Assembly (NCBI GenBank): GCA_003168375.1
Contig: PMSI01000005.1
Location: forward strand, 124,001-188,000
From: Vulcanimicrobiota bacterium
GTDB taxonomy: Bacteria; Vulcanimicrobiota; Vulcanimicrobiia; Vulcanimicrobiales; Vulcanimicrobiaceae
Direction of reading: 5' to 3'
Length of the DNA stretch: 64,000 nucleotides
Shown: piece after piece, positions 596 through 16,101 of the stretch
Layout: each line of letters starts with the position of its first letter
Position numbering within the stretch: the first letter of the stretch is position 1
The notes under the pieces: generated by a model
What the model saw: the letters and a program-made list of their open reading frames with translations, nothing else
What the model was told of the DNA's origin: nothing
Databases searched by the model: none
Translations under genes and position numbers: made by a program

Positions 596-1465
596 TCAGG
601 CGGCGGCCCCGGTTTGAATGCCGAGAATCCGCCGCGCCTCGTCAGGGGTCGCCACCGGACGGCCGAGCTCCTCGGCGATCCGCACGATTCGGGCGACCAG
701 CTCCTCGTTCGTCGCCAGCCTGCCCTTGCTGTAGTAGAGGTTGTCCTCGAGGCCCACCCGGACGTGCCCGCCCATCGCGACCGCGACCGCGGCGAGCGTC
801 AGCTGCATTCGGCCGATCCCGGCGACCGTCCAGGTGCAGCCCGGCGGCAGCGCGCGGACGCAGTCGACGAGGTGCTCGACCGACGCCTCGAGCGCGCCGG
901 GGACGCCGAGCACGAAGTCGACGTGGGCCGGCAGGCGGATCGCGCCTTCGGCGGCGAGCCGCTTCGCGTTGGAGAGGTGGCCGAGATCGAAGAGCTCGAG
1001 CTCCGGAACGACGCCGTGCTCGGCGATCTTCGCGGCGATCCCGCGCATGATCGGAAAGCTGTTCTCGAAGATGTCGTCGCCGAAGTTGACGGAGCCGCAG
1101 GTGAGCGTTGCCATCTCCGGTCGCAGCGCGAGCGGCGCGGCCCGCTCGGCCGGCGTCATCCCGATCGCGCCGCCCGTCGAGAACTGGACGATCAGATCGC
1201 TCGCTTCACGGATCGCCGCGTACGCCTGGCGGAAGCGCTCGACGTCGTGCGTGTTCGACCCGTCGTCGTTGCGGCAGTGCACGTGCACGATGCTCGCGCC
1301 GGCCTCGCGAATCGCGCGCGCCGTCGCCCCGAGCTGCGCGGGCGTGACGGGCAGGTAGGGCGTCTGGTCCGGCATGACCTCGCCGCCGACCGGCGCGACC
1401 GTGATGATCAACGGGTCCACGCGAGAGGGTTCGCTGGCCGAGCCCCACGCTCCGGTGTAGGGCAA
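596..1465 (-). CDS. beta-keto acid cleavage enzyme (BKACE, DUF849 family)
   Basis: Zn-dependent TIM-barrel enzyme of the family founded by Kce (3-keto-5-aminohexanoate cleavage enzyme), which condenses a beta-keto acid with acetyl-CoA to give acetoacetate and a CoA ester. Visible: the strand-opening PLIITVAPVGGE, the metal site HVHCR near residue 61, and RVGLEDN near residue 240, which matches the Kce Arg/Glu/Asp set spaced R-x3-E-D. Length 289 aa is usual. The outer start is TTG preceded by GAGG; a GTG at 1420, just before the PLIITVAP strand, is an alternative. The substrate cannot be told from sequence, but KamB/KamC homologues of lysine fermentation lie 10 kb away, so a 3-keto-5-aminohexanoate role is possible. 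Confidence 0.88.
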   Translation of the reverse strand: MPYTGAWGSASEPSRVDPLIITVAPVGGEVMPDQTPYLPVTPAQLGATARAIREAGASIVHVHCRNDDGSNTHDVERFRQAYAAIREASDLIVQFSTGGAIGMTPAERAAPLALRPEMATLTCGSVNFGDDIFENSFPIMRGIAAKIAEHGVVPELELFDLGHLSNAKRLAAEGAIRLPAHVDFVLGVPGALEASVEHLVDCVRALPPGCTWTVAGIGRMQLTLAAVAVAMGGHVRVGLEDNLYYSKGRLATNEELVARIVRIAEELGRPVATPDEARRILGIQTGAAA

Positions 1466-3397: not shown

Positions 3398-4306
3398 TTA
3401 GCCGCCGCCGGGGTCGAGGGCGTCTCGGAGGCCGTCGCCGAGCAGGTTCACGCCCATCACGGCGATCATGATCGCGAGGCCGGGGAAGAGCGCGGTCCAC
3501 CAGGCGGTGTCGAGATACTGGCGGCCGTCGGAGAGCATCCCGCCCCACGACGGGGTCGTCGGCGGGACGCCGAGACCGAGGAACGAGAGCGAGGACTCGA
3601 ACACGATCGCGCGCGCGATCTCGAACGTGCCGAGCACGATCACCGCTGACATGACGTTCGGGAGCAGATGCCGCGCGAGAATGCGCGGCGAGCTCGCGCC
3701 CGCCGCTACGGCCGCGGCGACGAACTCGCGCTCGCGCAGGCTCATCGTCTCGGCGCGCACGACGCGGACGTACTGCACCCACGAGGTCAGCCCGATCGCC
3801 GCGATCACCGTCCACAGGCCCGGACCGACGACCGCGACGATCGCGACCGCGAGGAGCACCAGCGGGAACGCGAGCTGCACGTCGGTGATGCGCGCGATGA
3901 CCGCGTCGACCCAGCCGCGGCGATAGCCGGCGAGCAGCCCGGCCGTCACGCCGATCGTCCCGCCGATCGCCACCACCGAGAGGCCGACGATCGCGGAGAC
4001 GCGGGAACCCCAGATGATTCGCGTTAGCAGGTCGCGCCCGAGGTTGTCGGTGCCGAGGACGTGCGCGTGGTTCCCGCCCGCGATCCACATCGGCGGGGTC
4101 AGCGTCGCGGTCAGATCCTGCGCGTTCGGATCGACGCGCGTGATGAGCGGCGCGAAGATCGCGCAGACCGCAACAATCGCGACGATGACGCCGCCGACGA
4201 TCGCCGCCGGGTCGCGCGCGAGCCGGCGCAGCGCGGCCACGTGTACGCTGGCTTCGGCAAACTCGTCGTCACGCGGCGGTGCGACGCCGGCAAGCGCGGT
4301 CGCCAT
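3398..4306 (-). CDS. ABC peptide transporter permease, DppC/OppC type
   Basis: 302-aa inner-membrane permease, second subunit of a peptide/nickel-type importer. It has the cytosolic N-terminal stretch, a first helix (IVGGVIVAIVAVCAIFAPLI), the HVLGTDNLGRDLLTRIIWG motif typical of DppC, and the coupling (EAA) loop around VAAAVAAGASSPRILARHLLPN near residue 210. The end SFLGLGVPPTTPSWGGMLSDG is also characteristic. Its start overlaps the stop of the DppB-type gene at 4306 by one base, so the two are translationally coupled. The operon reads binding protein, binding protein, DppB, DppC, with no ATPase in view; ATPase subunits must be encoded elsewhere. Confidence 0.92.
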   Translation of the reverse strand: MATALAGVAPPRDDEFAEASVHVAALRRLARDPAAIVGGVIVAIVAVCAIFAPLITRVDPNAQDLTATLTPPMWIAGGNHAHVLGTDNLGRDLLTRIIWGSRVSAIVGLSVVAIGGTIGVTAGLLAGYRRGWVDAVIARITDVQLAFPLVLLAVAIVAVVGPGLWTVIAAIGLTSWVQYVRVVRAETMSLREREFVAAAVAAGASSPRILARHLLPNVMSAVIVLGTFEIARAIVFESSLSFLGLGVPPTTPSWGGMLSDGRQYLDTAWWTALFPGLAIMIAVMGVNLLGDGLRDALDPGGG

Positions 4307-5223
4307 TACGCGTACCGGATGCGCGGATCGATCACCGCGTAGAGCAGGTCGACCGCGAGGTTCAGCAGCACGAAGAGCGTCGCCGCGATCAGCACGACCG
4401 CCTCCACAACCGGAAAGTCACGCTCGAAGACCGCCTGCACGGCCAACCGCCCGACGCCCGGCCATGCGAACACGGTCTCGGTGATGATCGCACCCGAGAG
4501 CAATCCCCCGAGTTCGACGCCGAGCTGGGTCACGATCGGCAGCCAGGCGTTGCGCAGTCCGTGACCGAGCGAGACCCGCAGCGCCGTCAACCCTTTCGCG
4601 CGCGCGGTGCGCATGTAATCCGCGCCGAGGATCTCCAGCATCGCGGCGCGCGTCAAGCGCATGAGCTTCGCCGTCGAGAAAAATCCCAGCGTCGCCGCCG
4701 GGAGCACGACGTTGTGCCAGTCGCCGATCCCGCTCGCCGGCGCCCAGCCGAGCCGCACCGCGAAGAGCAGGATCAGCATCAACCCGATCCAGTAGGTCGG
4801 CGCGCTCTGGCCGATCAGTGCGACGCCGCGCGCGGTGTAGTCGATCCACGTTCGCGGCTTCAGCGCGGAGAGGATGCCGGCCGGAACACCGACCAGCAGC
4901 ACGATGAGAAACGCGCTGCCGCCGAGCACAGCGGTGGCGGGCAGACGCTCGAGCGCGAGCCCCATCGCGGGCTCTTGGTGGCGCAGCGAAAGGCCGAGGT
5001 CGCCGTGTGCCGCGGCGAGCGCGAACGTCCCGAACTGCACGATGAGCGGACGATCGAAACCTTGCGCGTGGCGAAACGCGTCCATCTCGGCCTTCGTCGC
5101 TTCCGGCGGCATCATGACGCTCGTCGGATCACCGGTCAGGTGAAGGATGATGAACACGACGCTGGTGACGCCGATCAGTGCCCACACCGCTCCGAGCGCG
5201 CGGCGCGCAAGGTACGTGAGCAC
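4306..5223 (-). CDS. ABC peptide transporter permease, DppB/OppB type
   Basis: 305-aa inner-membrane permease. It starts MLTYLARRALGAVWALIGV from a GTG, has LTGDPTSVMMPPEATKAE in the first periplasmic loop and the EAA-type coupling region DYMRTARAKGLTALRVSLGH near residue 205, and ends with the family's VDLLYAVIDPRIRY. It lies 12 bp after the first binding-protein gene and overlaps the DppC partner by one base. Together they form the membrane channel of the importer; the peptide or glutathione-like substrate is inferred from the neighbouring gamma-glutamyltransferase, not shown by the sequence. Confidence 0.92.
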   Translation of the reverse strand: MLTYLARRALGAVWALIGVTSVVFIILHLTGDPTSVMMPPEATKAEMDAFRHAQGFDRPLIVQFGTFALAAAHGDLGLSLRHQEPAMGLALERLPATAVLGGSAFLIVLLVGVPAGILSALKPRTWIDYTARGVALIGQSAPTYWIGLMLILLFAVRLGWAPASGIGDWHNVVLPAATLGFFSTAKLMRLTRAAMLEILGADYMRTARAKGLTALRVSLGHGLRNAWLPIVTQLGVELGGLLSGAIITETVFAWPGVGRLAVQAVFERDFPVVEAVVLIAATLFVLLNLAVDLLYAVIDPRIRYA

Positions 5224-5235
5224 GTTAGGGCGACA

Positions 5236-6768
5236 TCAGCCCGGCGTCATCTCGTACGCGCGGATCGCTTCGTCGCCGCGCGGCTGCCAGCGCACGCGCT
5301 TCGAGGTGGCATAGAGGTCTTCGTATTGGAACAGCACGATCCAGGGAGCGTCCTCGTGCAGGATCGTCGCGATCTGCTTGAACAGCGCCTTGCGCTTCGC
5401 GGGAACGATTTCACGGGCGGCCAGCAGGTCCAGGCGGTCGATCTCGGGATTGTTGTAACACGACAGCGGCGCCGTCGACACGAATAGCGCCGAGACCACA
5501 CCGTCGGCGTCCGCGTTCGCGACGTTCCAACCGAGCTCGTACAGCGGCGTCTCCGCGCGGCGCGCGACCTGCGCATAGTACGCGACCCATTCCTGCGGTT
5601 TGACGGTCGTCTGAATACCGACCGCCTGCAGTTGACCGGCGACGGCTTCGGCGATCTCCTTGTCGCGGTTGTAGCGCCCGGTCGGCGCGTTAAGTGTCAG
5701 TGTCAGCCCCTTTCCATCGGGGTAGCCGGCCTTTGCCAGCAGCTCCTTCGCCTTGGCGAGGTCGTGCTTGTAGGCCGGCACGCTCGGGTCGAAGCCGACG
5801 TAGTTCGACGGGATCGGCGAGGTGAGCTCGAAGCCGCGCCCGCCGAGCACGTTCTTCACGATCGCGGGAACATCGACCGCGTAGTTGATCGCCTGGCGCA
5901 CGAGCTTGTTCTGCTGCGGGCCGGGCTGCAGGGTGTTGAACGCGATGAAGAGCTGGCGGTAGCTGCGCGTGCTGACGAGCTTCGTGTTCTGGCCGCCGGT
6001 GAGCTGAATCTGATACTGGTACGGGACGTTGGTGATCAGATCGGTGCCGCCGGTGCGCAGCGCGGCGACGCGCGCGCCCGCCTCCGGGATCGGCTTGAAC
6101 ACGGCATGCTCGAACGCGACATGCCCGCCCCACCACTTCGGGTTGGCATCCATCACGAGTTGGTCGTCGCGGTGCCACTCACGCAGCACGTATGGGCCGG
6201 TCCCGACCGGGTGGTCGGCGACGTACGCGTTTCCCTTCTCGCGAAAGTATTTCGCGTCGACGATGTAGATCGGCTGCGCGAAACCAAGCTCGATCGCGGT
6301 CGGCGCCGTCGAAACGAACCGCACGGTGTAAGGGTCCGGCGTATCGACGTGGTCGATGTTCCGTACGTACGGCGTCTGGCCCGACACGTTCACCTTGTCT
6401 TTGATCCACTCGACGGAGAACTTCACGTCGGCGCTGGTGAACGGGTCACCGTTCGAGAACGTCACCCCGCGGCGCAGCTTGTACTCTTCGGTCGTCGGAT
6501 TGATGCGCTTCCACGACACGGCCAGCTTCGGATCGTACTGCCCGGCGCTCGTGCCGAAGTCCACCAGCCGCTCGTAGAGATGCCCGACGACGTTGAACGT
6601 CGGCGTGATCGTGGTCGCGAGCGGGTTGAGCGTGTCCGCATCGACCCCTTGCGAGATCGTCACCGTGCTGTCGGCGGCCGGAACCGGCCCCGCCGGGACG
6701 AGCAAAAGAACGCTCAATATGATGAAGCCGACACCCTTTACGCGCATGCGCGGGGCCATACGACCCAC
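5236..6768 (-). CDS. ABC transporter substrate-binding protein, family 5 (copy 1)
   Basis: Periplasmic or lipid-layer binding protein of the peptide/nickel/opine class (SBP_bac_5), about 510 aa. A signal peptide (VKGVGFIILSVLLLVPAGPV) precedes the mature start ADSTVTISQGVDADTLNPL. Family landmarks are LRRGVTFSNGDPFTSADVKF near residue 100, VGTGPYVLREW near 190 and LVRQAINYAVDVPAIVKNVL. I chose the GTG at 6768, nine bases after AGGAG; an upstream ATG at 6822 adds an unlikely leader, and the ATG at 6759 is also possible. It is closely similar to the next gene upstream: both share ISQGVDADTLNPLATT and GPQQNKLVRQAINYAV, so this is a tandem duplicate. Confidence 0.9.
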   Translation of the reverse strand: MGRMAPRMRVKGVGFIILSVLLLVPAGPVPAADSTVTISQGVDADTLNPLATTITPTFNVVGHLYERLVDFGTSAGQYDPKLAVSWKRINPTTEEYKLRRGVTFSNGDPFTSADVKFSVEWIKDKVNVSGQTPYVRNIDHVDTPDPYTVRFVSTAPTAIELGFAQPIYIVDAKYFREKGNAYVADHPVGTGPYVLREWHRDDQLVMDANPKWWGGHVAFEHAVFKPIPEAGARVAALRTGGTDLITNVPYQYQIQLTGGQNTKLVSTRSYRQLFIAFNTLQPGPQQNKLVRQAINYAVDVPAIVKNVLGGRGFELTSPIPSNYVGFDPSVPAYKHDLAKAKELLAKAGYPDGKGLTLTLNAPTGRYNRDKEIAEAVAGQLQAVGIQTTVKPQEWVAYYAQVARRAETPLYELGWNVANADADGVVSALFVSTAPLSCYNNPEIDRLDLLAAREIVPAKRKALFKQIATILHEDAPWIVLFQYEDLYATSKRVRWQPRGDEAIRAYEMTPG

Positions 6769-6775
6769 GTACCTA

Positions 6776-6801
6776 AGCTCCTCTCGCCAGCTCCTCTCGC
6801 C
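6776..6801 (-). repeat. 13-bp tandem duplication carrying the ribosome binding site
   Basis: The 13 bases GGCGAGAGGAGCT (minus strand) occur twice head to tail directly upstream of binding-protein copy 1, so two AGGAG sites stand in series before its start. Only the copy nearer the gene has suitable spacing to the GTG at 6768. Confidence 0.8.
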
Positions 6802-6825
6802 GAATGTCGAGTATCGCGGCAAGCG

Positions 6826-8334
6826 CTAGCCGGCCGACATTTCGTAGGCGCGGATGAACTCGTCGCCGCGCGGCTGCCAATGCAGACGCTTCGAGGTCGC
6901 GTAGAGGTCTTCGTACTGGAACAGCACGATCCACGCCGCGTCGTCGTTCAGGATCGTCGCGATCCGTTTGTAGAGCGCCTTGCGCTTCACCGGATCGAGC
7001 TCACCGCGGGCCTCGTCGGCGAGCCGGTCTATCTCGGGGTTGCTGTAGCACGAGAGCGGCGCGTTCGTAGTGAACAGCGACGTGATGACGCCGTCGGCGT
7101 CGGCCGACGGCTGATTCCATCCCAGCTCGTAAAGCGGCGTGAGCCCGCGCCGTCCGACGAGGTTCGAATACGTCACCCACTCTTGCGCTTTCACGGTCGC
7201 CTGAATGCCGACCGCCTGGAGCTGGCCGGCGACGGCCTCGGCGACCTCGCGGTCGCGGTTGTAGCGCCCGATCGGCGCGTTCACGGTCAGCGAGATCCCC
7301 TTCCCGTCGGGATAACCGGCTTTGGCGAGCAGCGCCTTCGCTTTCGCGAGGTCGTGCTTGTAACCCGGCACCGACGGGTCGTAGCCGAAGTAGTTCGGCG
7401 GTATTGGTGAAGAGAGCTCGTAGCCGCGCCCACCCAGCACGTTCTTCACGATCGCGGGGACGTCGACGGCGTAGTTGATCGCCTGTCGCACGAGCTTGTT
7501 CTGCTGCGGTCCCGGCTGCAGCGTATTGAACGCCATGAAGAGCTGCCGCCCACTCCGCGTGCTCACCAGCTTCGTGTTCTGGCCACCGACGATCTGGGTG
7601 TAGTACTGCGGCGGCACGTTGGTGATCAGATCGGTCGCACCGGTGCGCAGCGCCGCGACGCGCGAGCCGGCTTCGGGGATCGGCTTGAAGACGACGTGAT
7701 CCACCTTCGGGCGGCCGTTCCACCACTTCGGATTGGCGTCCATCACGAGCTGGTCGTCGCGCTTCCACTCGCGCAGAACGTACGCGCCGGTGCCGACCGG
7801 GTGCACGGCGACATACGCGTTCCCTTTTTCCTGGTAGTACTTGGCGTCGACGATGAACAGCGGGTTCTGCAGCCCGGGCGGGATCGCGGTGGGCACCTTC
7901 GAGCTGAAGCGCACCGTGTACGGATCGGGCGTTTCGACGCGATCGATGTCGCGTACGTACGGCGTTTGTTCCGAGGCGTTCGCCTTGTTCTTGATCCAGT
8001 CGACGGTGAACCGCACGTCGGCGCTGGTGAACGGGTCCCCGTTCGAGAACGTCACGCCGCGGCGCAGTGTGTACTCCTCGGTCGTCGGATTGATCCGCTT
8101 CCACGAAACCGCCAGCCGCGGCTCGTACTCGCCGGGATGTGCGCCGAAATCGGCGAGCCGCTCGTAGAAGTGCTGCACGACGTTGAACGTCGGCGTGATC
8201 GTCGTCGCCAGCGGGTTGAGCGTATCGGCGTCGACGCCTTGCGAGATGGTGACCGTCGTGTCCGCCGCGCGCAGCGGCGCGGCCGCCGAGAGCGCCAGGA
8301 CGGCGCCGAAGAGGAGGGCGGTGGCGCGCTTCAT
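6826..8334 (-). CDS. ABC transporter substrate-binding protein, family 5 (copy 2)
   Basis: 502-aa exported binding protein for a peptide-type ABC importer and first gene of the operon that continues into copy 1, DppB and DppC. Signal peptide: MKRATALLFGAVLALSAAAP, then AADTTVTISQGVDADTLNP. It carries the same landmarks as copy 1 (LRRGVTFSNGDPFTSADVRF, VGTGAYVLREWKRDDQLVMD, GYPDGKGISLTVNAPIGRYN). Differences from copy 1 cluster in the middle and near residue 410 (LVGRRGLTPLYELGWNQPSA), where ligand contacts of the family usually lie, so the two copies may prefer different substrates. The region before its start holds the divergent promoter shared with the third copy. Confidence 0.9.
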   Translation of the reverse strand: MKRATALLFGAVLALSAAAPLRAADTTVTISQGVDADTLNPLATTITPTFNVVQHFYERLADFGAHPGEYEPRLAVSWKRINPTTEEYTLRRGVTFSNGDPFTSADVRFTVDWIKNKANASEQTPYVRDIDRVETPDPYTVRFSSKVPTAIPPGLQNPLFIVDAKYYQEKGNAYVAVHPVGTGAYVLREWKRDDQLVMDANPKWWNGRPKVDHVVFKPIPEAGSRVAALRTGATDLITNVPPQYYTQIVGGQNTKLVSTRSGRQLFMAFNTLQPGPQQNKLVRQAINYAVDVPAIVKNVLGGRGYELSSPIPPNYFGYDPSVPGYKHDLAKAKALLAKAGYPDGKGISLTVNAPIGRYNRDREVAEAVAGQLQAVGIQATVKAQEWVTYSNLVGRRGLTPLYELGWNQPSADADGVITSLFTTNAPLSCYSNPEIDRLADEARGELDPVKRKALYKRIATILNDDAAWIVLFQYEDLYATSKRLHWQPRGDEFIRAYEMSAG

Positions 8335-8424
8335 CGTGCGCGCTTACGGCGGCGCGGGGATGGCCCCTGCAACCGGAAGGCGAAGCGCGACCGTCCCCGT
8401 CCCGACCACCGCGCAAGGAACGCT

Positions 8425-9948
8425 ATGACACGTCGCCGGTCCCTCCTGGCCGCACTCGCCTTCGCCATGCTCGCGCCGGCCGTCTCCGGTACCCCCGTAC
8501 GCGCCGCCGATCCGGCGACCGTGACGATCACGCAGGGCGTCGACGTCAGCACACTCGACCCGCTCAAAGCCTCGGTCACGACCGATACCAACGTCCAAGC
8601 GCAGATCTTCGACACGCTCGCGCGCCGCTCGCCCGACGGTTCGGCGCTGATCCCGCAGCTCGCCCTCTCGTGGCGACGGATCGCCCCGACGGTCTGGGAG
8701 TTCACGCTGCGGCGCGGCGTGACGTTCTCGAACGGCGACCCGTTCACCAGCGCCGACGTCAAGTACACCGTCGAGAAGATTCTCGATCCGGCGTACAAGT
8801 CGCAGCAGGTCCCCCGCGTCGACACCGTCGCGCGCGTCGAAGCGCCTGATCCGTACACCGTCCGCTTCGTGACGAAGCGTCCGACGCCGCTGCCGCCGGC
8901 GATCACGCGGCCGGTTTTCATCGCCGACGCGAAGTTCTGGCAAGAGCACGGCGACGCGTACGTCGCGGAGCATCCGATGGGGACCGGGGCCTACGTGCTG
9001 CGCTCGTGGCACCGCGACGACGCGCTCGAGCTCGACGCGAACCCCAAGTACTGGGGCGGTCCGCCGGCGATCGCGCACGTGGTCTTCAAACCGATCCCGG
9101 AGGGCGGGACCCGCGTCTCCGCGCTGCGCACCGGTGCGACCGACCTGATCACCAACGTCCCGTTCCAGTACGCGACGCTGCTAGCCGGCGGGACGAACAC
9201 GCGCATGGCAAGCGCGAAGAGCGTTCGCGTCCTCTACGTCGCGTTCAACACGCTTCAGCCGGGGCCGCAGCAGAACGTGCTGGTGCGGCAGGCGCTGAAC
9301 TACGCGATCGACGTGCCGGCGATCATCAAGGCGGTGCTCGGCGGCCGCGCGTACGAGCTCGGCGAACCGGTGCCGGAAAATTTTTTCGGCTACGATCCGA
9401 AGCTCGCGCCGTACCATCACGACGCGGCGAAGGCGAAGGCCCTGCTCGCGAAGGCCGGGTATCCCGACGGGAAGGGTCTCTCGCTGACGCTCTACGCGCC
9501 GCAGGGCCGGTACAACGGTGACAAGGAGATCGCGCTCGCACTCGGCGGTCAGCTGCAGGCGGCTGGCGTTCACGTCGACGTGCGCACCCAGGAATGGGTG
9601 AGTTACTACTCGCAAACGCTGAGGCGCGCGCTCTCGCCGATGTACATGCTGGGCTGGGGAAACATCACCTACGACGCCGACAACACGCTCTCATCGCAGC
9701 TCGTCTCGGACGCCGTATCGTCGACCTACGCGAATCCCGCGGTCGACAAGCTCGTGGACGCGGCGCGGTACGAGCTCGATCCGGTCAAGCGCAAGGCGCT
9801 CTACGCGAAGGTACTGCAGATTGTGCACGAGGACGCGCCGTGGCTGTTCCTGTTTCAATACGAAGACCTCTACGCCACCTCGAAGCGCCTGCAGTGGCAG
9901 CCGCGCCCGGACGAAGGGATCTATTGCACCGAGATGCGGCTGAGATGA
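8425..9948 (+). CDS. ABC transporter substrate-binding protein, family 5 (copy 3, divergent)
   Basis: 507-aa exported binding protein, third paralogue of the cluster but on the opposite strand. The ATG at 8425 follows AAGGA by five bases and opens a signal peptide (RRRSLLAALAFAMLAPAVSG). The mature part starts with VTITQGVDVSTLDPLKASVT, clearly less like copies 1 and 2 than those are to each other, yet the core RRGVTFSNGDPFTSADVKY and FNTLQPGPQQNVLVRQALNY is kept. Its stop overlaps the start of the gamma-glutamyltransferase (ATGA), so both are made from one message. That pairing suggests a gamma-glutamyl compound or glutathione as the ligand; this is inference. Confidence 0.9.
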   Translation: MTRRRSLLAALAFAMLAPAVSGTPVRAADPATVTITQGVDVSTLDPLKASVTTDTNVQAQIFDTLARRSPDGSALIPQLALSWRRIAPTVWEFTLRRGVTFSNGDPFTSADVKYTVEKILDPAYKSQQVPRVDTVARVEAPDPYTVRFVTKRPTPLPPAITRPVFIADAKFWQEHGDAYVAEHPMGTGAYVLRSWHRDDALELDANPKYWGGPPAIAHVVFKPIPEGGTRVSALRTGATDLITNVPFQYATLLAGGTNTRMASAKSVRVLYVAFNTLQPGPQQNVLVRQALNYAIDVPAIIKAVLGGRAYELGEPVPENFFGYDPKLAPYHHDAAKAKALLAKAGYPDGKGLSLTLYAPQGRYNGDKEIALALGGQLQAAGVHVDVRTQEWVSYYSQTLRRALSPMYMLGWGNITYDADNTLSSQLVSDAVSSTYANPAVDKLVDAARYELDPVKRKALYAKVLQIVHEDAPWLFLFQYEDLYATSKRLQWQPRPDEGIYCTEMRLR

Positions 9949-11558
9949 CCTGGCCGACGCGCGCCGTCGCGCGCTCGACGCGCGGCATGGTCGCTTCGCC
10001 GCACGCGCTCGCGACCGCGGCCGGGGTCGACGTCCTGCGCCGCGGCGGCAACGCCGTCGATGCGGCGATCGCCGCCAACGCCGTGCTGAGCGTGGTGTAC
10101 CCGGCCAGCTGCGGGATCGGCGGCGACGCCTTTTGGATCGTGCACGATCCGAACGCGGTCGTGCACGACGCGACCGCGATGCGCACCGTCGCCTACAACG
10201 GCAGCGGACGGACTCCGCGCACCGCCTCGCTCGACCGCCTGCCCGGCCGCGTGCTGCCCCAGCGCGGAGCGTTGGCGGTGACCGTCCCCGGCGCGGTGCG
10301 CTCGTGGGAGGACGTCGCGCGCGCGCACGGGACGCGCGGGCTCGACGAGCTGCTCGCGCCGGCCGAGCTCTTCGCGCGCAACGGGGTCGCGATCACCGAC
10401 GTGGTGGCGAACTACGCCGCGCTCAACGAGGCGCTATTGCGCCAAAACGCCGACGCGCAGCGGATTTTTCTCCCCGGCGGCGTGCCGCGCGCCGGCGACA
10501 TCCTGCGCAACCCCGAGCTCGGCGAGACGATCGGCGCGATCCGGCGCGGCGGCGCGGACGCGTTCTATACCGGCGAGATCGCCGAGCGCATCGTACGCAC
10601 GCTGAATCGCGACGGAAACGCGATGACGCTCGAGGACCTCGCCACGCACCGCACCGAGGCGACGGTTCCGCTCCGGATCCCGTGGAACGGCGGCGAGCTG
10701 CTCGCGCACCCGCCCAACTCGCAGGCCGCGCTGCTGCTCCTCGGCGCCGGGATGCTCGAAGGCGACCGCGGCGTCGAAGAGCCGCTGTGGCACCATCTCG
10801 GCGTCGAGGCGATGAAGCGCGCGATGGCGATCCGCGACGCGACCTTCCGGGATCCGGCGTTCGGACCGACCGGGATCGAGGCCGAACTCGCGCCGGAACG
10901 GCTGGCTGCACTGCGCGCATCGATCGACCCCGAGCGCGCGAGCCCGCGCCGGCACCTCCCCGATCGGGGCGGCACGATCTTCCTCTGCGTCGTCGACGAG
11001 GATGGGATCGCGGTCTCGCTGATCGAGAGCCTCTACATGAACTATGGTTCGGGCGTCGTCGCCGACGGCACCGGGGTCGTGCTGCAGAACCGCGGCGCGT
11101 ACTTCAGCACCGATCCCGCGCATCCAAACGCCTACGAAGGCGGCAAGCGTCCGGTGCACACGCTCTCACCGCCGATGTTCCTGCGCAACGGTATGCCCGA
11201 GGTCGTTTTCGGGACGATGGGCGGCGACGGCCAGCCGCAGATCCTGCTGCAGTTCCTCCACCAGCTGGTCGACCGCGGCGTCGACGTTCAACGCGCGCTC
11301 GATCACCCGCGCTGGATCTACGGCCGGCACCAGCTCACCGAGCGTCCCGACCTCGCGACCGGCGAGATGGTGCTCGTCGAGTCGCGGATGCCGGAGAGCA
11401 TCGTGGCTGGACTCGAACGGCGCGGACACACCGTGACGGCGCTCGGGCCCTACGAGAACGCGATGGGCCACGCGCACGCGATCGTGATCGACAGCGACCG
11501 CGGAACGCTAGCCGGCGGGAGCGACCCGCGCGCCGACTCGCTCGCGCTGGGCCTGTAG
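9945..11558 (+). CDS. gamma-glutamyltransferase (gamma-glutamyltranspeptidase family)
   Basis: 537-aa N-terminal nucleophile hydrolase that cleaves or transfers the gamma-glutamyl group of glutathione and related amides. The opening GMVASPHALATAAGVDVLRR and GGNAVDAAIAANAVLSVVYP is diagnostic. The proenzyme cleavage site should be GGTIFLCVVDEDG: its Thr aligns with the catalytic Thr of the usual Thr-Thr-His motif, but the following residues are Ile-Phe instead of Thr-His. GTMGGDGQPQILLQFLHQ near residue 425 is the conserved small-subunit motif. No convincing signal peptide is seen, so the enzyme may be cytosolic. It starts inside the stop of the preceding binding-protein gene, arguing for uptake followed by cleavage of gamma-glutamyl peptides. 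Confidence 0.9.
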   Translation: MTWPTRAVARSTRGMVASPHALATAAGVDVLRRGGNAVDAAIAANAVLSVVYPASCGIGGDAFWIVHDPNAVVHDATAMRTVAYNGSGRTPRTASLDRLPGRVLPQRGALAVTVPGAVRSWEDVARAHGTRGLDELLAPAELFARNGVAITDVVANYAALNEALLRQNADAQRIFLPGGVPRAGDILRNPELGETIGAIRRGGADAFYTGEIAERIVRTLNRDGNAMTLEDLATHRTEATVPLRIPWNGGELLAHPPNSQAALLLLGAGMLEGDRGVEEPLWHHLGVEAMKRAMAIRDATFRDPAFGPTGIEAELAPERLAALRASIDPERASPRRHLPDRGGTIFLCVVDEDGIAVSLIESLYMNYGSGVVADGTGVVLQNRGAYFSTDPAHPNAYEGGKRPVHTLSPPMFLRNGMPEVVFGTMGGDGQPQILLQFLHQLVDRGVDVQRALDHPRWIYGRHQLTERPDLATGEMVLVESRMPESIVAGLERRGHTVTALGPYENAMGHAHAIVIDSDRGTLAGGSDPRADSLALGL

Positions 11559-11559
11559 C

Positions 11560-13137
11560 TCAACTCCTCGTAGAGCGCTCGTTCAGCGAGCGCGCGCGAT
11601 CGACGACGCTCTCGTCGAGTCCCAGCAGGCGCGCGAGCGCGAGCGCGTCGGAGTCGGTTTCGCGCGCGTGCGCGTCGACGATGCGATAGTCCATGGCGGC
11701 GTTGATCGCGTCGAGTGCAGCGTCCAGGTCGCTTGCGCGGACGGCGTCGAGCGTCTCCGCGCGCAGCCCCGCGATCCGCAGATGCGGCACACCCGCCGCC
11801 TCCGCTACGCCGTCGAAGTGCGTGGCAACGAGCGCGAGCGTTCCGCGCGCGCGCACTGCTTCGACAACCGCGATCAGCAGCGCACGCCCTTCGCGCGGTC
11901 CGGTCGTCCGCGCGAACTCGTCGACCAGCACGAGCGTTTGCGGCGACGCGACAGCGAGCGCGTCGCCCGCCCGCACGACCTCCGCGGCGTACGACGAGAG
12001 CAGGCGCGCGCGATCTTCGTGCCCCTCGCCGCCGATCCAGACGATCGCGCTCGGCAGCGGCAGCGAGGCTTCGCGCGCCGGCGGCGGCACGCCGAGCGCG
12101 ACGCACGCGCACAGGAAGCCGGCCGTCGCGAGCGCTGCGCTCTTGCCGCCCATGTTCGGTCCGGTCAGGACCGCGACGCCTCGCAGGTCGAGCGAGAGCG
12201 CGGTGTACCGGTGCCCGCGTGCGCCGAGCGCGTCGGCCAGCGGCGCGAAGGTCGCCTCGGCGAAAGCGACGCGGCCTTCGGTGAGCTCGGGGACGCACGC
12301 GCCCCAGCGCTGCGCGAATGCGACGCGCGCCAGCGCGCGATCGAGCGCGCCGAGCGCGCGCGTCGCCGCGGCAACGGCGTCGGCTTCGCGCGCGACCCGC
12401 TCTGCCAGCGCGCGGCGCGCACCTTCTTCTTCGATCGCCAACCGCTCGAGCGCGGCGTCGCGATCCGGCGCGACGACGCGAACCGCCGCCGCACGATACG
12501 TCGGCGTCTCGCGCACGACGAAGACGCCGTCGGGCAGCGGCCCGGCATAGTCGTCGCGCAGCACGACGAACTCGTCGCCGACCGCATCGATGCCGGTCAC
12601 GGCGCGCACCCGCGCGGCGATCTCCCCGCGGCGAGCTTCGTACTCCGCTTCTTCAAGGGCGAACGCGGCCCGCGCGCCGCGCAGTCCCGGCGCGAACGCG
12701 TCGGCAAGATAGAAGCCGGCGCCCTCGCGGCCGGGCGCGAGCACGGCGCGCAGCGCCTCCACCGACGGCGGACGCCTTTCCGGCGCTCCCGCGGCGGCGT
12801 CCCAGGCGCGCGCGAGGGCGGCGAGCGCGTCGACGAAGCGGCCGAGTTCGTAGAAGTCGACGTCGCTGAGCGGATCGCCGGCTCGCGCTCGCCCGAGGAT
12901 CGGCGCAGGCTCGGGAACGGCGCGCAGTGCCGCGCGAACGCGCGCCACCCCGTCGCGGTCCAAACGCTCGGCCAAGGCGACCACGCCGGCGATCTCCGCG
13001 CGCGCGCGGGTTTCGTCACCGGGGCCGTACGGCGCAACCGCGTCGTCGTGACGCCGGCCGAACGCACCCACCGGCGCGACCGCTGCGCGCAACCACGTCA
13101 GCCCGATACGCTCGGCGGTGGTCACATCCGCCCTCAT
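11560..13137 (-). CDS. kamC: MutS-related ATPase, KamC-like (aminomutase reactivase)
   Basis: 525-aa protein whose C-terminal third is a MutS-type ABC ATPase: Walker A VLTGPNMGGKSAAL near residue 316, Walker B QTLVLVDEFARTTGPREG near 410, and the switch histidine in ALVATHFD. The N-terminal part is a long helical region rich in Arg/Ala without the MutS mismatch-binding domain, so this is not a repair MutS. A MutS-like ATPase translationally coupled (ATGA) to a KamB-like P-loop protein is the known arrangement of KamB/KamC, which restore the adenosylcobalamin of lysine 5,6-aminomutase. The mutase subunits are not in the window. A role in another B12 aminomutase or in recombination cannot be excluded. 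Confidence 0.72.
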   Translation of the reverse strand: MRADVTTAERIGLTWLRAAVAPVGAFGRRHDDAVAPYGPGDETRARAEIAGVVALAERLDRDGVARVRAALRAVPEPAPILGRARAGDPLSDVDFYELGRFVDALAALARAWDAAAGAPERRPPSVEALRAVLAPGREGAGFYLADAFAPGLRGARAAFALEEAEYEARRGEIAARVRAVTGIDAVGDEFVVLRDDYAGPLPDGVFVVRETPTYRAAAVRVVAPDRDAALERLAIEEEGARRALAERVAREADAVAAATRALGALDRALARVAFAQRWGACVPELTEGRVAFAEATFAPLADALGARGHRYTALSLDLRGVAVLTGPNMGGKSAALATAGFLCACVALGVPPPAREASLPLPSAIVWIGGEGHEDRARLLSSYAAEVVRAGDALAVASPQTLVLVDEFARTTGPREGRALLIAVVEAVRARGTLALVATHFDGVAEAAGVPHLRIAGLRAETLDAVRASDLDAALDAINAAMDYRIVDAHARETDSDALALARLLGLDESVVDRARSLNERSTRS

Positions 13138-14027
13138 GCGGCCAGATCCGCGACGACGTCGAACGCCGGCAAGCCGGTCGCGCGCGCGACCGCTTCGACC
13201 AGCGCGCGCGGCGCGAGCATCGCCTCGCGCCCTTCGACAAGCTCAGGATGACGCGGCGAGGTGGTGCAGGCGACGACGCGCAGCGGGCGTTCGCAGCGCA
13301 GATCGACGGCGGCGCGCAGCCTGTCGAAGAGCGCGCCGCGGATCGCGATCCGCGTCGGGTCTTCGACGACGACCGTCGCGTCGCGCGCATCCGCCAGCAG
13401 CTCCTCGGCATCGCGCCCGTCGAGGGCGCCGGCGATGCGCACGACGCGAGCCCGCTCGTGTTGCGGATCGCGCCCTGGAATCGTCAGCCGCGCGATCGTT
13501 TCCGCCGCGACCGCCGCGACACGGGCGATCGTCGAGCCGCTCGCCGCGCCGGTTGCGAGGATCACCGCGTCATCGCCGCCGGCGAGCGCCGCGACGCGGT
13601 CGATCGCACCGTCGACCAGCACCGGCCCCGAGCCGAGCGCACGCAGGCGGTCGATCGTCGCGCGCATCGCGCTGGCCGTCGGTGGTCCCGCGATCTCGCA
13701 CATGGTCGGCAGCACGACCCGCGCGAAGACCGTCGTGCCGAGCGCGCTCTCCGCACCAGATCCGAGGATCGCGAGCGCCGGTGTGCGCGGAACGAGTCCG
13801 GCCGCGAGCGCGACCAGCGTCCCCGGCGCCAGGCGCAGCCGCGGCTTCGGTTCCCCGTCGAGCGCGTCCGATGCTTCGCCGTCGCGCCCGATCGACGTCA
13901 CCGCGATCGCGATGCCGCGGCGCATCGCGACGGCGCGGAGCGCGTTGAACGTCGTCGTCTTCCCGACGTTCTTCGCCGTTCCGACGACAATCACGCTGGC
14001 CGCGTGCGCCAGCGCGAGCGAGTACAA
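13134..14027 (-). CDS. kamB: P-loop protein, KamB-like (aminomutase reactivase subunit)
   Basis: About 297 aa. A Walker A motif opens the protein (SVIVVGTAKNVGKTTTFNAL), followed by TSIGRDGEASDALDGEPKPR and an aspartate-bearing strand PVLVDGAIDRVAAL near residue 165. This matches the KamB partner of KamC, the reactivase of lysine 5,6-aminomutase. The start is uncertain: I chose TTG at 14027, just after the mntP stop; a TTG at 14066 would overlap mntP. Near the C-terminus the coding frame runs through a copy of the dispersed repeat (13230-13253), read as SPRHPELVEGRE. Its stop overlaps the KamC-like start (ATGA). Confidence 0.7.
   Translation of the reverse strand: MYSLALAHAASVIVVGTAKNVGKTTTFNALRAVAMRRGIAIAVTSIGRDGEASDALDGEPKPRLRLAPGTLVALAAGLVPRTPALAILGSGAESALGTTVFARVVLPTMCEIAGPPTASAMRATIDRLRALGSGPVLVDGAIDRVAALAGGDDAVILATGAASGSTIARVAAVAAETIARLTIPGRDPQHERARVVRIAGALDGRDAEELLADARDATVVVEDPTRIAIRGALFDRLRAAVDLRCERPLRVVACTTSPRHPELVEGREAMLAPRALVEAVARATGLPAFDVVADLAA
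13230..13253 (-). repeat. dispersed repeat, copy inside the kamB-like gene
   Basis: On the minus strand this reads GTCATCCTGAGCTTGTCGAA followed by GGG, the same core as the copies at 39.28, 42.21 and 49.26 kb. It lies in frame in the 3' part of the kamB-like gene and adds the residues HPELVEG. Confidence 0.85.
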
Positions 14028-14031
14028 CGCC

Positions 14032-14604
14032 TCAGAGGCCGACGTGGAAGAACTTGAGCGCGGCAAAGGCTACGCCAGTGATGACGAGGACGATCCCCGC
14101 CGACAGCGCCGCACGCTCCTCGGCAACGGCGCCGAGCTTCTTCCCCAGCGCGAGCCCCAGCGTCGTCGAGATGACCGAGGCGACGCCGATGAACACCAGG
14201 CTGACGACCAGCGGCACGCCGATGTAGAGGATCGAAAAGCCGATCCCGAGCGAGTCGAGGCTGATCGAGAGCGCCCCGAGCATGAGACCCCAGCCGCGCG
14301 AGAGGTCGAAGCCGCCACCCTCCTCGGTTCCGTGCAGCGCTTCGTAGATCATGTAGCCGCCGACCCCGACCAGCGCGGCGAACCCGAGATAGCCGGCCGC
14401 ATCGCCGAGCAGACGCCCCGCGGCCTGGCCGATCAGCACGCCGATCACCGTCATCGAGACCTCGGCGAAGGCGAACGCCGCGCCGATGCGGATCTTGACC
14501 GCGCGGTCGGTCCCCTTCATCCCGACCCCGACCGAGACGGCGAAGACGTCGAGCCCCAGCGAGAGCGCGACGAACAGGACCTTGAAGAACGCGATCAGCG
14601 TCAT
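14032..14604 (-). CDS. mntP: manganese efflux pump MntP
   Basis: 190-aa inner-membrane protein with six predicted helices in two three-helix repeats, exporting Mn2+. The two conserved aspartate motifs are present: SLGLDVFAVSVGVGMKG near residue 15 and ALSISLDSLGIGFSILY near residue 112. Length and topology are as usual for MntP (YebN). The gene starts 27 bp from an AGCGG pentanucleotide array and hairpin. I see no yybP-ykoY-type manganese riboswitch in front of it. Downstream, with 4 bp spacing, follows the kamB-like gene; the link between them is unclear. Confidence 0.93.
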   Translation of the reverse strand: MTLIAFFKVLFVALSLGLDVFAVSVGVGMKGTDRAVKIRIGAAFAFAEVSMTVIGVLIGQAAGRLLGDAAGYLGFAALVGVGGYMIYEALHGTEEGGGFDLSRGWGLMLGALSISLDSLGIGFSILYIGVPLVVSLVFIGVASVISTTLGLALGKKLGAVAEERAALSAGIVLVITGVAFAALKFFHVGL

Positions 14605-14626
14605 CGCTCAGCCGGGGCGGGGCGGC

Positions 14627-14659
14627 GCGGAGCGGAGCGGAGCGGAGCGGAGCGGAGCG
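14627..14659 (-). repeat. AGCGG pentanucleotide tandem repeat upstream of mntP
   Basis: About six uninterrupted copies of AGCGG lie 23-55 bp before the mntP start. Five-base units are prone to slippage, so copy number may vary between cells and alter promoter or leader spacing. Confidence 0.85.
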
Positions 14660-14686
14660 CGGCTTCGCGCACTTTGCGCGAAGCCG
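14660..14686 (-). terminator. perfect 11-bp hairpin after the receiver gene
   Basis: CGGCTTCGCGC and GCGCGAAGCCG pair perfectly around a five-base loop, beginning one base past the stop of the single-domain receiver gene. There is no T-run on the minus strand, so it may act as a weak terminator or mRNA-stabilising end instead of a strong intrinsic terminator. Confidence 0.55.
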
Positions 14687-14687
14687 A

Positions 14688-15083
14688 TTATGCGCCGAGA
14701 ACGGATTGGAGCGGATCGGTCAGGAGCTGATGCACCGTCGAGCGCAGCTGCGCGAGCGTGAACGGCTTGTTGAGGAAGGCGTTTGCCCCGGCCTCCTTGG
14801 CGCGCGCATCCATCGCGTAGTTGTTGTGGCCGCTGATCATGACGATCGGGAGGTGCGAGGTCGGCCGGTTCTGCCGCACCTGCGCGATCAGTTCGATCCC
14901 GGAGATCCCCGGCATCATGAAGTCGCTGATGAGAATATCGTACGGGTCGTCGCGCTGAATGTGAACCAGCGCACTCTCGGCGTCCTCGCACAACGTAACG
15001 TCGTACGGTCCCCGCGCAAGGATCGTTTTGATGAGCATACATATCTCGGGGTCGTCGTCGGCGACGAGGACTCGCCAGGCCAT
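14688..15083 (-). CDS. single-domain response regulator (CheY-like receiver)
   Basis: 131 aa, one receiver domain and nothing else. The acidic pocket is ADDDPE near residue 9, the phospho-acceptor Asp sits in LISDFMMPG near residue 54, Ser/Thr in VMISGH near 83, and Lys in NKPFT near 106, so the domain should be active. No kinase is adjacent; the nearest is the hybrid kinase at 21.6-23.9 kb on the same strand. It is divergent from proline dehydrogenase, with 130 bp between. Such stand-alone receivers pass phosphate in relays or act on motility or enzyme partners; the target is unknown. Confidence 0.92.
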   Translation of the reverse strand: MAWRVLVADDDPEICMLIKTILARGPYDVTLCEDAESALVHIQRDDPYDILISDFMMPGISGIELIAQVRQNRPTSHLPIVMISGHNNYAMDARAKEAGANAFLNKPFTLAQLRSTVHQLLTDPLQSVLGA

Positions 15084-15213
15084 GCGCGTCGTGTTCCCGT
15101 TTTCGGACCCCTCGCCTACACTGCGATTGAAAAGAGCGTGATAAGACTGCGGGATCCATCGCCGGGGTGGTACCCCGAGGGCCGCGCCGGATCATGCCGA
15201 AGCCCGACGCTTC

Positions 15214-16101
15214 GTGGCACTGCTCGACGTGATCCAGACTCCCGCGTTCCAGCAGCGGTTCTTCTTCCTCGCGAAGCGGTTCATTGCCGGCGAGACCGTC
15301 GCCCAGGCGATGGACGCGGTCGCCGGACTGAACGCACAGGGGATGACGGCGACGCTCGACTTCCTGGGCGAAGACGTCACCTCGCGGGTCGAGGCCGAAC
15401 GGACGCGCGATGCCTACTTCGAGCTCCTCGAGGCGATCCGCAGGCGCGGCGTCGAGACGAACGTATCGGTGAAGCTTACCGCGATCGGTTTGCTCGTCGA
15501 CGAAGACTTCGCGCTTGCGAATCTGCGCGCGGTCCTCGGCGCGTCCTCGCGCAACCGCGATCCGTTCGTCCGCATCGACATGGAGGGCTCGGCGGTCACC
15601 GGCCCGACGCTGCGCGTCTTCGAGCAGGTGTACGCCCAGACCAAGGACGTCGGGCCGGTCCTTCAAGCCTATCTGAAGCGGACGCCGGCCGACGCCGAGC
15701 ACATGATCGAGATCGGCGCCCGGGTTCGCCTCTGCAAAGGCGCCTACAGCGAACCGCCCGAGCTCGCGTACAAGGACATGCCGACGATCCGCAGCCACTA
15801 CCTGCGGTGCGCCGAAGCGCTGCTCGAGCGCGGTCGCTACCCGGGAATCGCGACGCACGACGAGCGCATCATCGCGGCCGTCGAAACGTTCGTCGGCGAG
15901 CGCAACATCGGCCGCGACCGCTTCGAGTTCCAGATGCTCTACGGCGTGCGGCCGGAATTGCAGCGCCGGCTGGTCTCCGACGGCTACCGGCTGCGCGTCT
16001 ACGTTCCGTACGGCACGCACTGGGCGGGCTATTTCTACCGCCGCATCACCGAGCGCCCGGAGAACGCGCTCTTCGCCTTGCGCTCCATGTTGCACCGATA
16101 G
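15214..16101 (+). CDS. proline dehydrogenase (monofunctional)
   Basis: 295-aa FAD enzyme that oxidises proline to 1-pyrroline-5-carboxylate, the first step of proline breakdown. The barrel motifs are in order: GMTATLDFLGEDV near residue 43, NVSVKLTAIGL near 83, RIDMEGSA near 118, RVRLCKGAYSEP near 170, IATHDERII near 210, FEFQMLYGVRP near 238 and the substrate-binding YRRITERPENA at the end, with the Arg-Arg pair typical of ProDH. The start is a GTG with no strong ribosome binding site. The P5C dehydrogenase partner is not next to it. Confidence 0.93.
   Translation: MALLDVIQTPAFQQRFFFLAKRFIAGETVAQAMDAVAGLNAQGMTATLDFLGEDVTSRVEAERTRDAYFELLEAIRRRGVETNVSVKLTAIGLLVDEDFALANLRAVLGASSRNRDPFVRIDMEGSAVTGPTLRVFEQVYAQTKDVGPVLQAYLKRTPADAEHMIEIGARVRLCKGAYSEPPELAYKDMPTIRSHYLRCAEALLERGRYPGIATHDERIIAAVETFVGERNIGRDRFEFQMLYGVRPELQRRLVSDGYRLRVYVPYGTHWAGYFYRRITERPENALFALRSMLHR

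Follow-up and report, generated by a model that had tools for sequence, protein, structure and literature searches.

Does a pair of genes for KamB- and KamC-like proteins, found apart from any lysine 5,6-aminomutase, still serve that enzyme? We asked this of a 64,000-nucleotide stretch of Vulcanimicrobiota DNA (hereafter the window), which corresponds to contig C5:124001-188000 in a genome of 7 contigs and 4.43 Mb. The name "reactivase" for KamBC derives from NCBIfam. Drawing on the family membership of KamC, the whole gene set, synteny and co-occurrence, all of which were observed, we consider it very probable that KamB and KamC together form, with one NTPase subunit each, the reactivase of a B12- and PLP-dependent lysine 5,6-aminomutase, KamDE, that is encoded elsewhere in the same genome.

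Both genes lie on the minus strand. kamC (11560..13137) encodes a MutS-core ATPase of 525 aa, the putative ATPase subunit of the reactivase, and was assigned by NF052383, predicted fold and Walker motifs; the adjoining kamB-like gene (13134..14027) encodes a P-loop NTPase and was assigned by synteny and predicted fold, with a score below the NF052386 cut-off. At the minus-strand junction (...GCATGAGG...) the KamB stop and the KamC start overlap as ATGA (13134..13137). The KamB-like frame starts with TTG at 14027, and an alternative longer ORF starts at TTG 14066, which falls within the 3' end of the upstream MntP-like gene (14032-14604). KamC scored 313.4 bits against the NF052383 equivalog model, above the cut-off of 300, with profile positions 1-506 of 508 covered. 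Its partner reached 172 bits against the NF052386 cut-off of 210, and for that reason we use the label KamB-like; in our genome scan this cut-off was reached in only 1 of 60 genomes. The AKNVGKTT motif is present and conserved in the KamB set, as GPNMGGKS is in the KamC set. The P-loop and a GRDGE motif are conserved in the KamB set, including the KamB-like protein of the window, and the Walker A core GxNMGGK and Walker B DE are retained among 55 KamC sequences. The sequence-only reading, which had described two ORFs here with the ATGA overlap and these two motifs and had named them KamB and KamC, is thus borne out, with KamC above its equivalog cut-off and KamB-like below its own. Upstream, at 14032-16101, the MntP-like pump gene reaches or overlaps the start of kamB and is followed by a response regulator and a proline dehydrogenase; homologues of these three are found near kamB in most relatives.

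AlphaFold models of the two proteins had pLDDT values of 91.6 (KamB-like) and 91.4 (KamC). The predicted fold of KamC is the MutS2 core, with a TM-score of 0.68-0.75 by target length against solved MutS2 cores, and a PDB sequence search with KamC returned MutS-family chains only. Foldseek searching with the KamB model gave zero matches at E 0.001 or better, with MeaB seen only as a weak resemblance in the P-loop fold (E 0.08). When re-aligned, the KamB-like model matched SRP GTPases and dethiobiotin synthetases at Z about 10-11.5, and the predicted fold is read only as a SIMIBI-type P-loop.

Whole-genome searches for kamD, kal and kdd recovered a single copy of each, all on contig C4: kamD at C4:1818431-1819945 (KamD 778.8 bits, above the equivalog cut-off of 600), kal at C4:1709053-1709409 (194.1 bits, cut-off 160) and kdd at C4:1196081-1197106 (248.7 bits, cut-off 200). 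Reading downstream of kamD located kamE, which adjoins it on the 3' side and whose product passes its equivalog model (337.9 bits, cut-off 280). A KamA-family radical SAM gene adjoins kdd and passes TIGR00238 (224.5 against 199.2); because it scores far below the cut-off of the lysine 2,3-aminomutase model TIGR03820 (243.5 against 525.4), the first pathway step is assigned via family and kdd neighbour only. KamA-like, KamB-like, KamC, KamD, KamE, Kdd, Kce and Kal constitute the full gene set from lysine to crotonyl-CoA and acetoacetate, in four loci. The earlier observation that the window holds no kamD, kamE or kal is borne out for kamD and kal, and the genome-wide KamD search that it called for returned one kamD with an adjacent kamE, both over cut-off. 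Its suggestion that the mutase might lie just outside the window fails, as kamDE lies on C4 and the remainder of C5 is without kamD. KamC and KamDE coexist in this genome, with kamC on C5 and kamD on C4 rather than side by side, and since the mutase is simply on another contig the puzzle is largely an ordinary one. Among the best 80 of 585 confirmed kamD loci, the closest named MAG contigs by KamD were Vulcanimicrobiota (Eremiobacterota, WPS-2).

The remaining lysine gene in the window is kce, a BKACE-family gene at 596..1465 on the minus strand that was identified by Pfam PF05853 (E=1.4e-101) and synteny; it scored 372 bits against NF052387, below the cut-off of 382. To place it we fetched 20 kamBC regions from relatives, 15 outside the window's genus and 5 inside. 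kamB lies immediately upstream of kamC in all 20. In 12 of the 15 regions from outside the genus kce comes immediately after kamC, and in the other 3 it lies within about 1.4 kb. Within the genus, a gamma-glutamyltransferase separates kamC from kce by 1.6-1.7 kb in two of the five regions; in two more, gamma-glutamyltransferase, solute-binding proteins and permeases separate them by about 10 kb (one with kce in the adjoining stretch, the other with kce cut by the edge of the fetched stretch), and in the fifth the contig end was reached before kce. The window, with kamC ending at 11560 and kce starting at 1465, resembles the 10-kb pair. Between them lie a gamma-glutamyltransferase ORF (9594..11558, plus strand; PF01019 at residues 146-648, and synteny), whose true start is probably well inside the ORF, near 9945; an ORF with a family-5 solute-binding protein match from residue 318 (7696..9948, plus strand; PF00496); two family-5 solute-binding proteins (6826..8334 and 5236..6822, both minus strand; PF00496); a peptide-type ABC permease (4306..5223, minus strand; PF00528); and an OppC-type ABC permease (3398..4306, minus strand; PF00528, PF12911). 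From the synteny outside and inside the genus it follows that kce is the ancestral operon neighbour of kamBC and that the gap of about 10 kb is an insertion into a kamB-kamC-kce unit. The sequence-only reading therefore had the position of the BKACE gene, more than 10 kb away, right, and erred in treating it as a distant bystander.

We then compared this arrangement with named kamD loci, using the best 80 of 585 confirmed loci and counting those with at least 4 kb upstream of kamD. Where kamB and kamC occur together with kamD in named genomes, they are found directly upstream of it. Among the Bacillota loci, kamB and kamC were both near kamD in 29, kamB only in 4 and kamC only in 1, the contig of this last locus beginning inside kamC; 5 Promethearchaeota loci had kamB only; and neither gene was near kamD in 7 Bacteroidota and 9 Vulcanimicrobiota loci. 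For 6 of those 7 Bacteroidota, KamC is encoded elsewhere in the genome, and in 3 of 4 Bacteroidota regions fetched kamB is beside kamC. Like the window, Bacteroidales loci L211, L213 and L214 have kamB and kamC adjacent and away from kamD, although the KamC proteins of Bacteroidales form a separate clade; in L212 kamC is present and kamB was not detected. Because Bacteroidota show the same separation, the window is not alone in having kamBC apart from kamDE, and adjacency of kamC and kamD is common, not defining.

We also compared the set with the kamABCDE-kdd-kce cluster of Fusobacteriota and Clostridia, represented here by Fusobacterium gastrosuis (L149; order kce-kdd-kamA-kamB-kamC-kamD-kamE). 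Shared features are that KamC, KamD, KamE, Kdd and Kal pass their NCBIfam models, that kamB directly precedes kamC and that kce belongs to the set. The window genome differs in having four loci instead of one cluster, in linking kamBC to kce and peptide-type permeases and not to kamDE, in having KamB and Kce under the curated cut-offs, and in carrying haem-copper oxidases. The putative reactivase pair is a further member of a known family, not an orphan, and is merely rearranged.

Scattered genes and the several relatives without KamC could also be taken to mean that the lysine genes are decaying remnants in this lineage and that kamBC was kept by chance; in the same direction, PMC9758169 describes cultured Vulcanimicrobium WC8-2 as growing only aerobically and not using L-lysine as sole carbon source. 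Against decay, kamBCDE, kdd, kal and kce are open frames that span their models in the window genome, and identity within the genus is 85-88% for KamD and 76-81% for KamB, so that we regard a relic as improbable.

To determine which enzyme the pair follows, we searched 60 relatives, including the window genome, for kamB, kamC, kamD and kdd. Presence and absence were tabulated by hand from listings; a KamC match had to reach 240 bits, except that fragments in G007 and G040 were also counted; KamD counts include partial matches at contig ends (for example G007, G009 and G017) and KamB counts include partial matches in G004, G007, G009 and G010. A better set comprised the 42 genomes with completeness of 90% or higher and contamination of 5% or lower. 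Here KamB and KamD were both present in 26 genomes and both absent from 15, with KamB only in 0 and KamD only in 1. The corresponding numbers for KamC and KamD were 21 both, 0 KamC only, 6 KamD only and 15 neither, and for Kdd and KamD 26 both, 1 Kdd only, 1 KamD only and 14 neither. All four genes are missing from the 14 genomes of class f3, 12 of them in the better set; this absence is one shared history, and much of the co-occurrence rests on it. With f3 removed from the better set, the counts (both, first only, KamD only, neither) are 26/0/1/3 for KamB/KamD and 21/0/6/3 for KamC/KamD. Across all 60 genomes, KamB occurs without KamD in G003, G010, G032 and G040 (74-85% complete), KamD without KamB in G011, G056 and G059, and KamC without KamB in none. 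G056, which is 96% complete, has KamD and lacks both KamB and KamC.

These distributions bear on the proposal, also made from the sequence, that the client of the pair is a different cobalamin enzyme, for instance methylmalonyl-CoA mutase or some other mutase. The window genome does have three matches to the methylmalonyl-CoA mutase family PF01642, and its kamBC is not beside kamDE. However, PF01642 is found in 58 of the 60 genomes, including nearly all of those lacking KamBC, and it is KamD that KamB and KamC follow across the relatives; the position of kamBC immediately upstream of kamD in named genomes points the same way. We consider another client very unlikely, and methylmalonyl-CoA mutase was rejected as client on the PF01642 distribution.

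In the KamC tree the window protein clusters with other Vulcanimicrobiota KamC (100/100) and next with Alicyclobacillus KamC (99/95), and in a larger KamC tree Alicyclobacillus and Thermoactinomyces fall on the Vulcanimicrobiota side (96/92). MutS-family rows, including the MutS-family proteins of the window's own genome, branch jointly and away from all KamC rows (100/98). An AU test in which Vulcanimicrobiota KamC was constrained with the MutS rows gave p 0.184 and so did not reject that grouping; since the constraint mainly shifts the KamC root and does not turn KamC into a MutS2, we give the result no weight in either direction. KamC and KamD trees, the latter with SH-aLRT support only, agree for the five genus members they share, with G005 outermost, G006 next inside, and the window genome grouped with G001 and G002; this last fork has modest support (KamC 94/56, KamD SH-aLRT 89). 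Such matching order is as expected if both loci descend together. The view that KamC is a MutS2-type or mismatch-repair ATPase in a chance neighbourhood, for which MutS_V as the sole Pfam domain and the shared MutS2 core fold could be cited, is the least probable of all and was rejected, given a score of 115.4 bits against the MutS2 model cut-off of 400, a length of 525 aa (about 270 residues shorter than MutS2; the MutS-family rows used have about 790-830), the distinct long MutS-family proteins that C2 and C6 of the same genome encode, the adjoining kamB in every fetched region, and the tree. The sequence-only reading had suggested a KamC phylogeny, with a MutS2 placement and no aminomutase in the genome as the outcome that would speak against it; the tree sets KamC apart from the MutS family, and the genome encodes the aminomutase.

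Some relatives retain KamB without KamC. In G034, G013, G027 and G015 (L111, L112, L113 and L114) kamB runs straight into kce with no kamC between, and in G032 (L115; 85% complete, no kamD detected) kamB lies 1.1 kb before kce, again with no kamC between; genome-wide, none of the five has a KamC-grade match. On the KamD tree (SH-aLRT only), G013 pairs with G026 (88) and G034 with G029 (81), and since both partners have KamC, KamC was likely lost at least twice. Among named genomes, 12 have kamB near kamD and no KamC over cut-off (7 Promethearchaeota and 5 others), although completeness is unknown for some of these, and a 104-bit contig-end fragment in G066 could be a cut KamC. The Promethearchaeota loci are L139, L153, L159, L169, L176, L185 and L199, with KamC under cut-off or not found; the Prometheoarchaeum locus L156, unlike these seven, has both kamB and kamC. 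KamC thus appears to be lost more easily than KamB, the latter seemingly being kept alone in five relatives and in roughly a dozen named genomes. Somewhat short of an even chance, in our estimate, KamB alone is a minimal reactivase and KamC an optional accessory ATPase.

Other B12-enzyme reactivases, for example diol dehydratase reactivase and MeaB, rescue a B12 enzyme with ATP or GTP. Reactivase activity of KamBC is putative and each step of its mechanism is proposed by analogy with these, to which no sequence match was reported. As published, KamDE destroys its own coenzyme during turnover (suicide inactivation). On the analogy, KamBC would bind the enzyme thus inactivated; SIMIBI-like KamB and KamC, a MutS-like clamp, may then open KamDE by binding or hydrolysing NTP, so that damaged cobalamin could be swapped for fresh adenosylcobalamin. 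The client pathway would be the lysine fermentation route (KamA, KamDE, Kdd, Kce, Kal). PMC3958899 describes recombinant KamDE as active and yet suicide-inactivated by substrate, and mentions for the native enzyme an auxiliary protein of about 80 kDa, E2, whose activity is linked to ATP; we infer that KamBC is, or resembles, this activator E2. A lysine fermentation cluster figure in PMC3149608, also seen in part, marks a MutS-family gene, and the part of PMC3091704 consulted yielded nothing on KamBC. Literature searches on KamB/KamC, or on reactivase with aminomutase, found no KamBC assay, and the match for the term reactivase concerned diol dehydratase only; searches on an aerobic lysine aminomutase, on BKACE with lysine and on microcompartments with an aminomutase contributed nothing further. 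Counting against a KamDE reactivase are the scores of KamB and Kce under their NCBIfam cut-offs, the lack of an operon joining kamBC to kamDE here, the several genomes with KamD and no KamC, G056 with KamD alone, the share of the co-occurrence that comes from the single absence in class f3, the KamA score far under the lysine 2,3-aminomutase cut-off, and the failure of WC8-2 to grow on L-lysine.

In two distant phylum members, an Era-type GTPase gene and then bacterial-microcompartment genes come after kamD-kamE (L084 in G055, 5693-15435; L085 in G056, 4286-11881). Both include a BMC shell gene and an aldehyde dehydrogenase, with a phosphate propanoyltransferase in L084 and EutN/CcmL and RpiB in L085; this could be a lysine-linked microcompartment or a mere neighbour. 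L101 (G027, 9121-10644) has kamD without a detected kamE beside it. In L105 (8991-9731) kal is at the very end of a long ORF (9413-11140) that is MazG-type-like by eye, an odd partner for a lysine pathway gene.

COX1-family oxidases were found in 56 of the 60 relatives, and 35 of the 37 that have KamD are among these; because most KamD-bearing relatives have such oxidases, the route from lysine may supply acetyl-CoA for oxidation instead of ending in butyrate fermentation. The failure of aerobically grown WC8-2 to use L-lysine as sole carbon source speaks against this. Literature searches combining Eremiobacterota or Vulcanimicrobiota with lysine or aminomutase gave no report of the pathway among the matches listed. 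By searching the whole genome and comparing synteny, an apparent orphan pair is resolved, and a route familiar from anaerobes that ferment amino acids is shown to be encoded, in separate pieces, across a soil phylum. What stays of interest is the rearrangement of the operon and the likely recurrent loss of KamC in lineages that keep KamB. With genomes that have KamB only, it can be tested directly how the two reactivase subunits share their work, and if KamB alone does prove to be a minimal reactivase, the window's clade would be a natural experiment in which half of a B12-enzyme reactivase is being lost.
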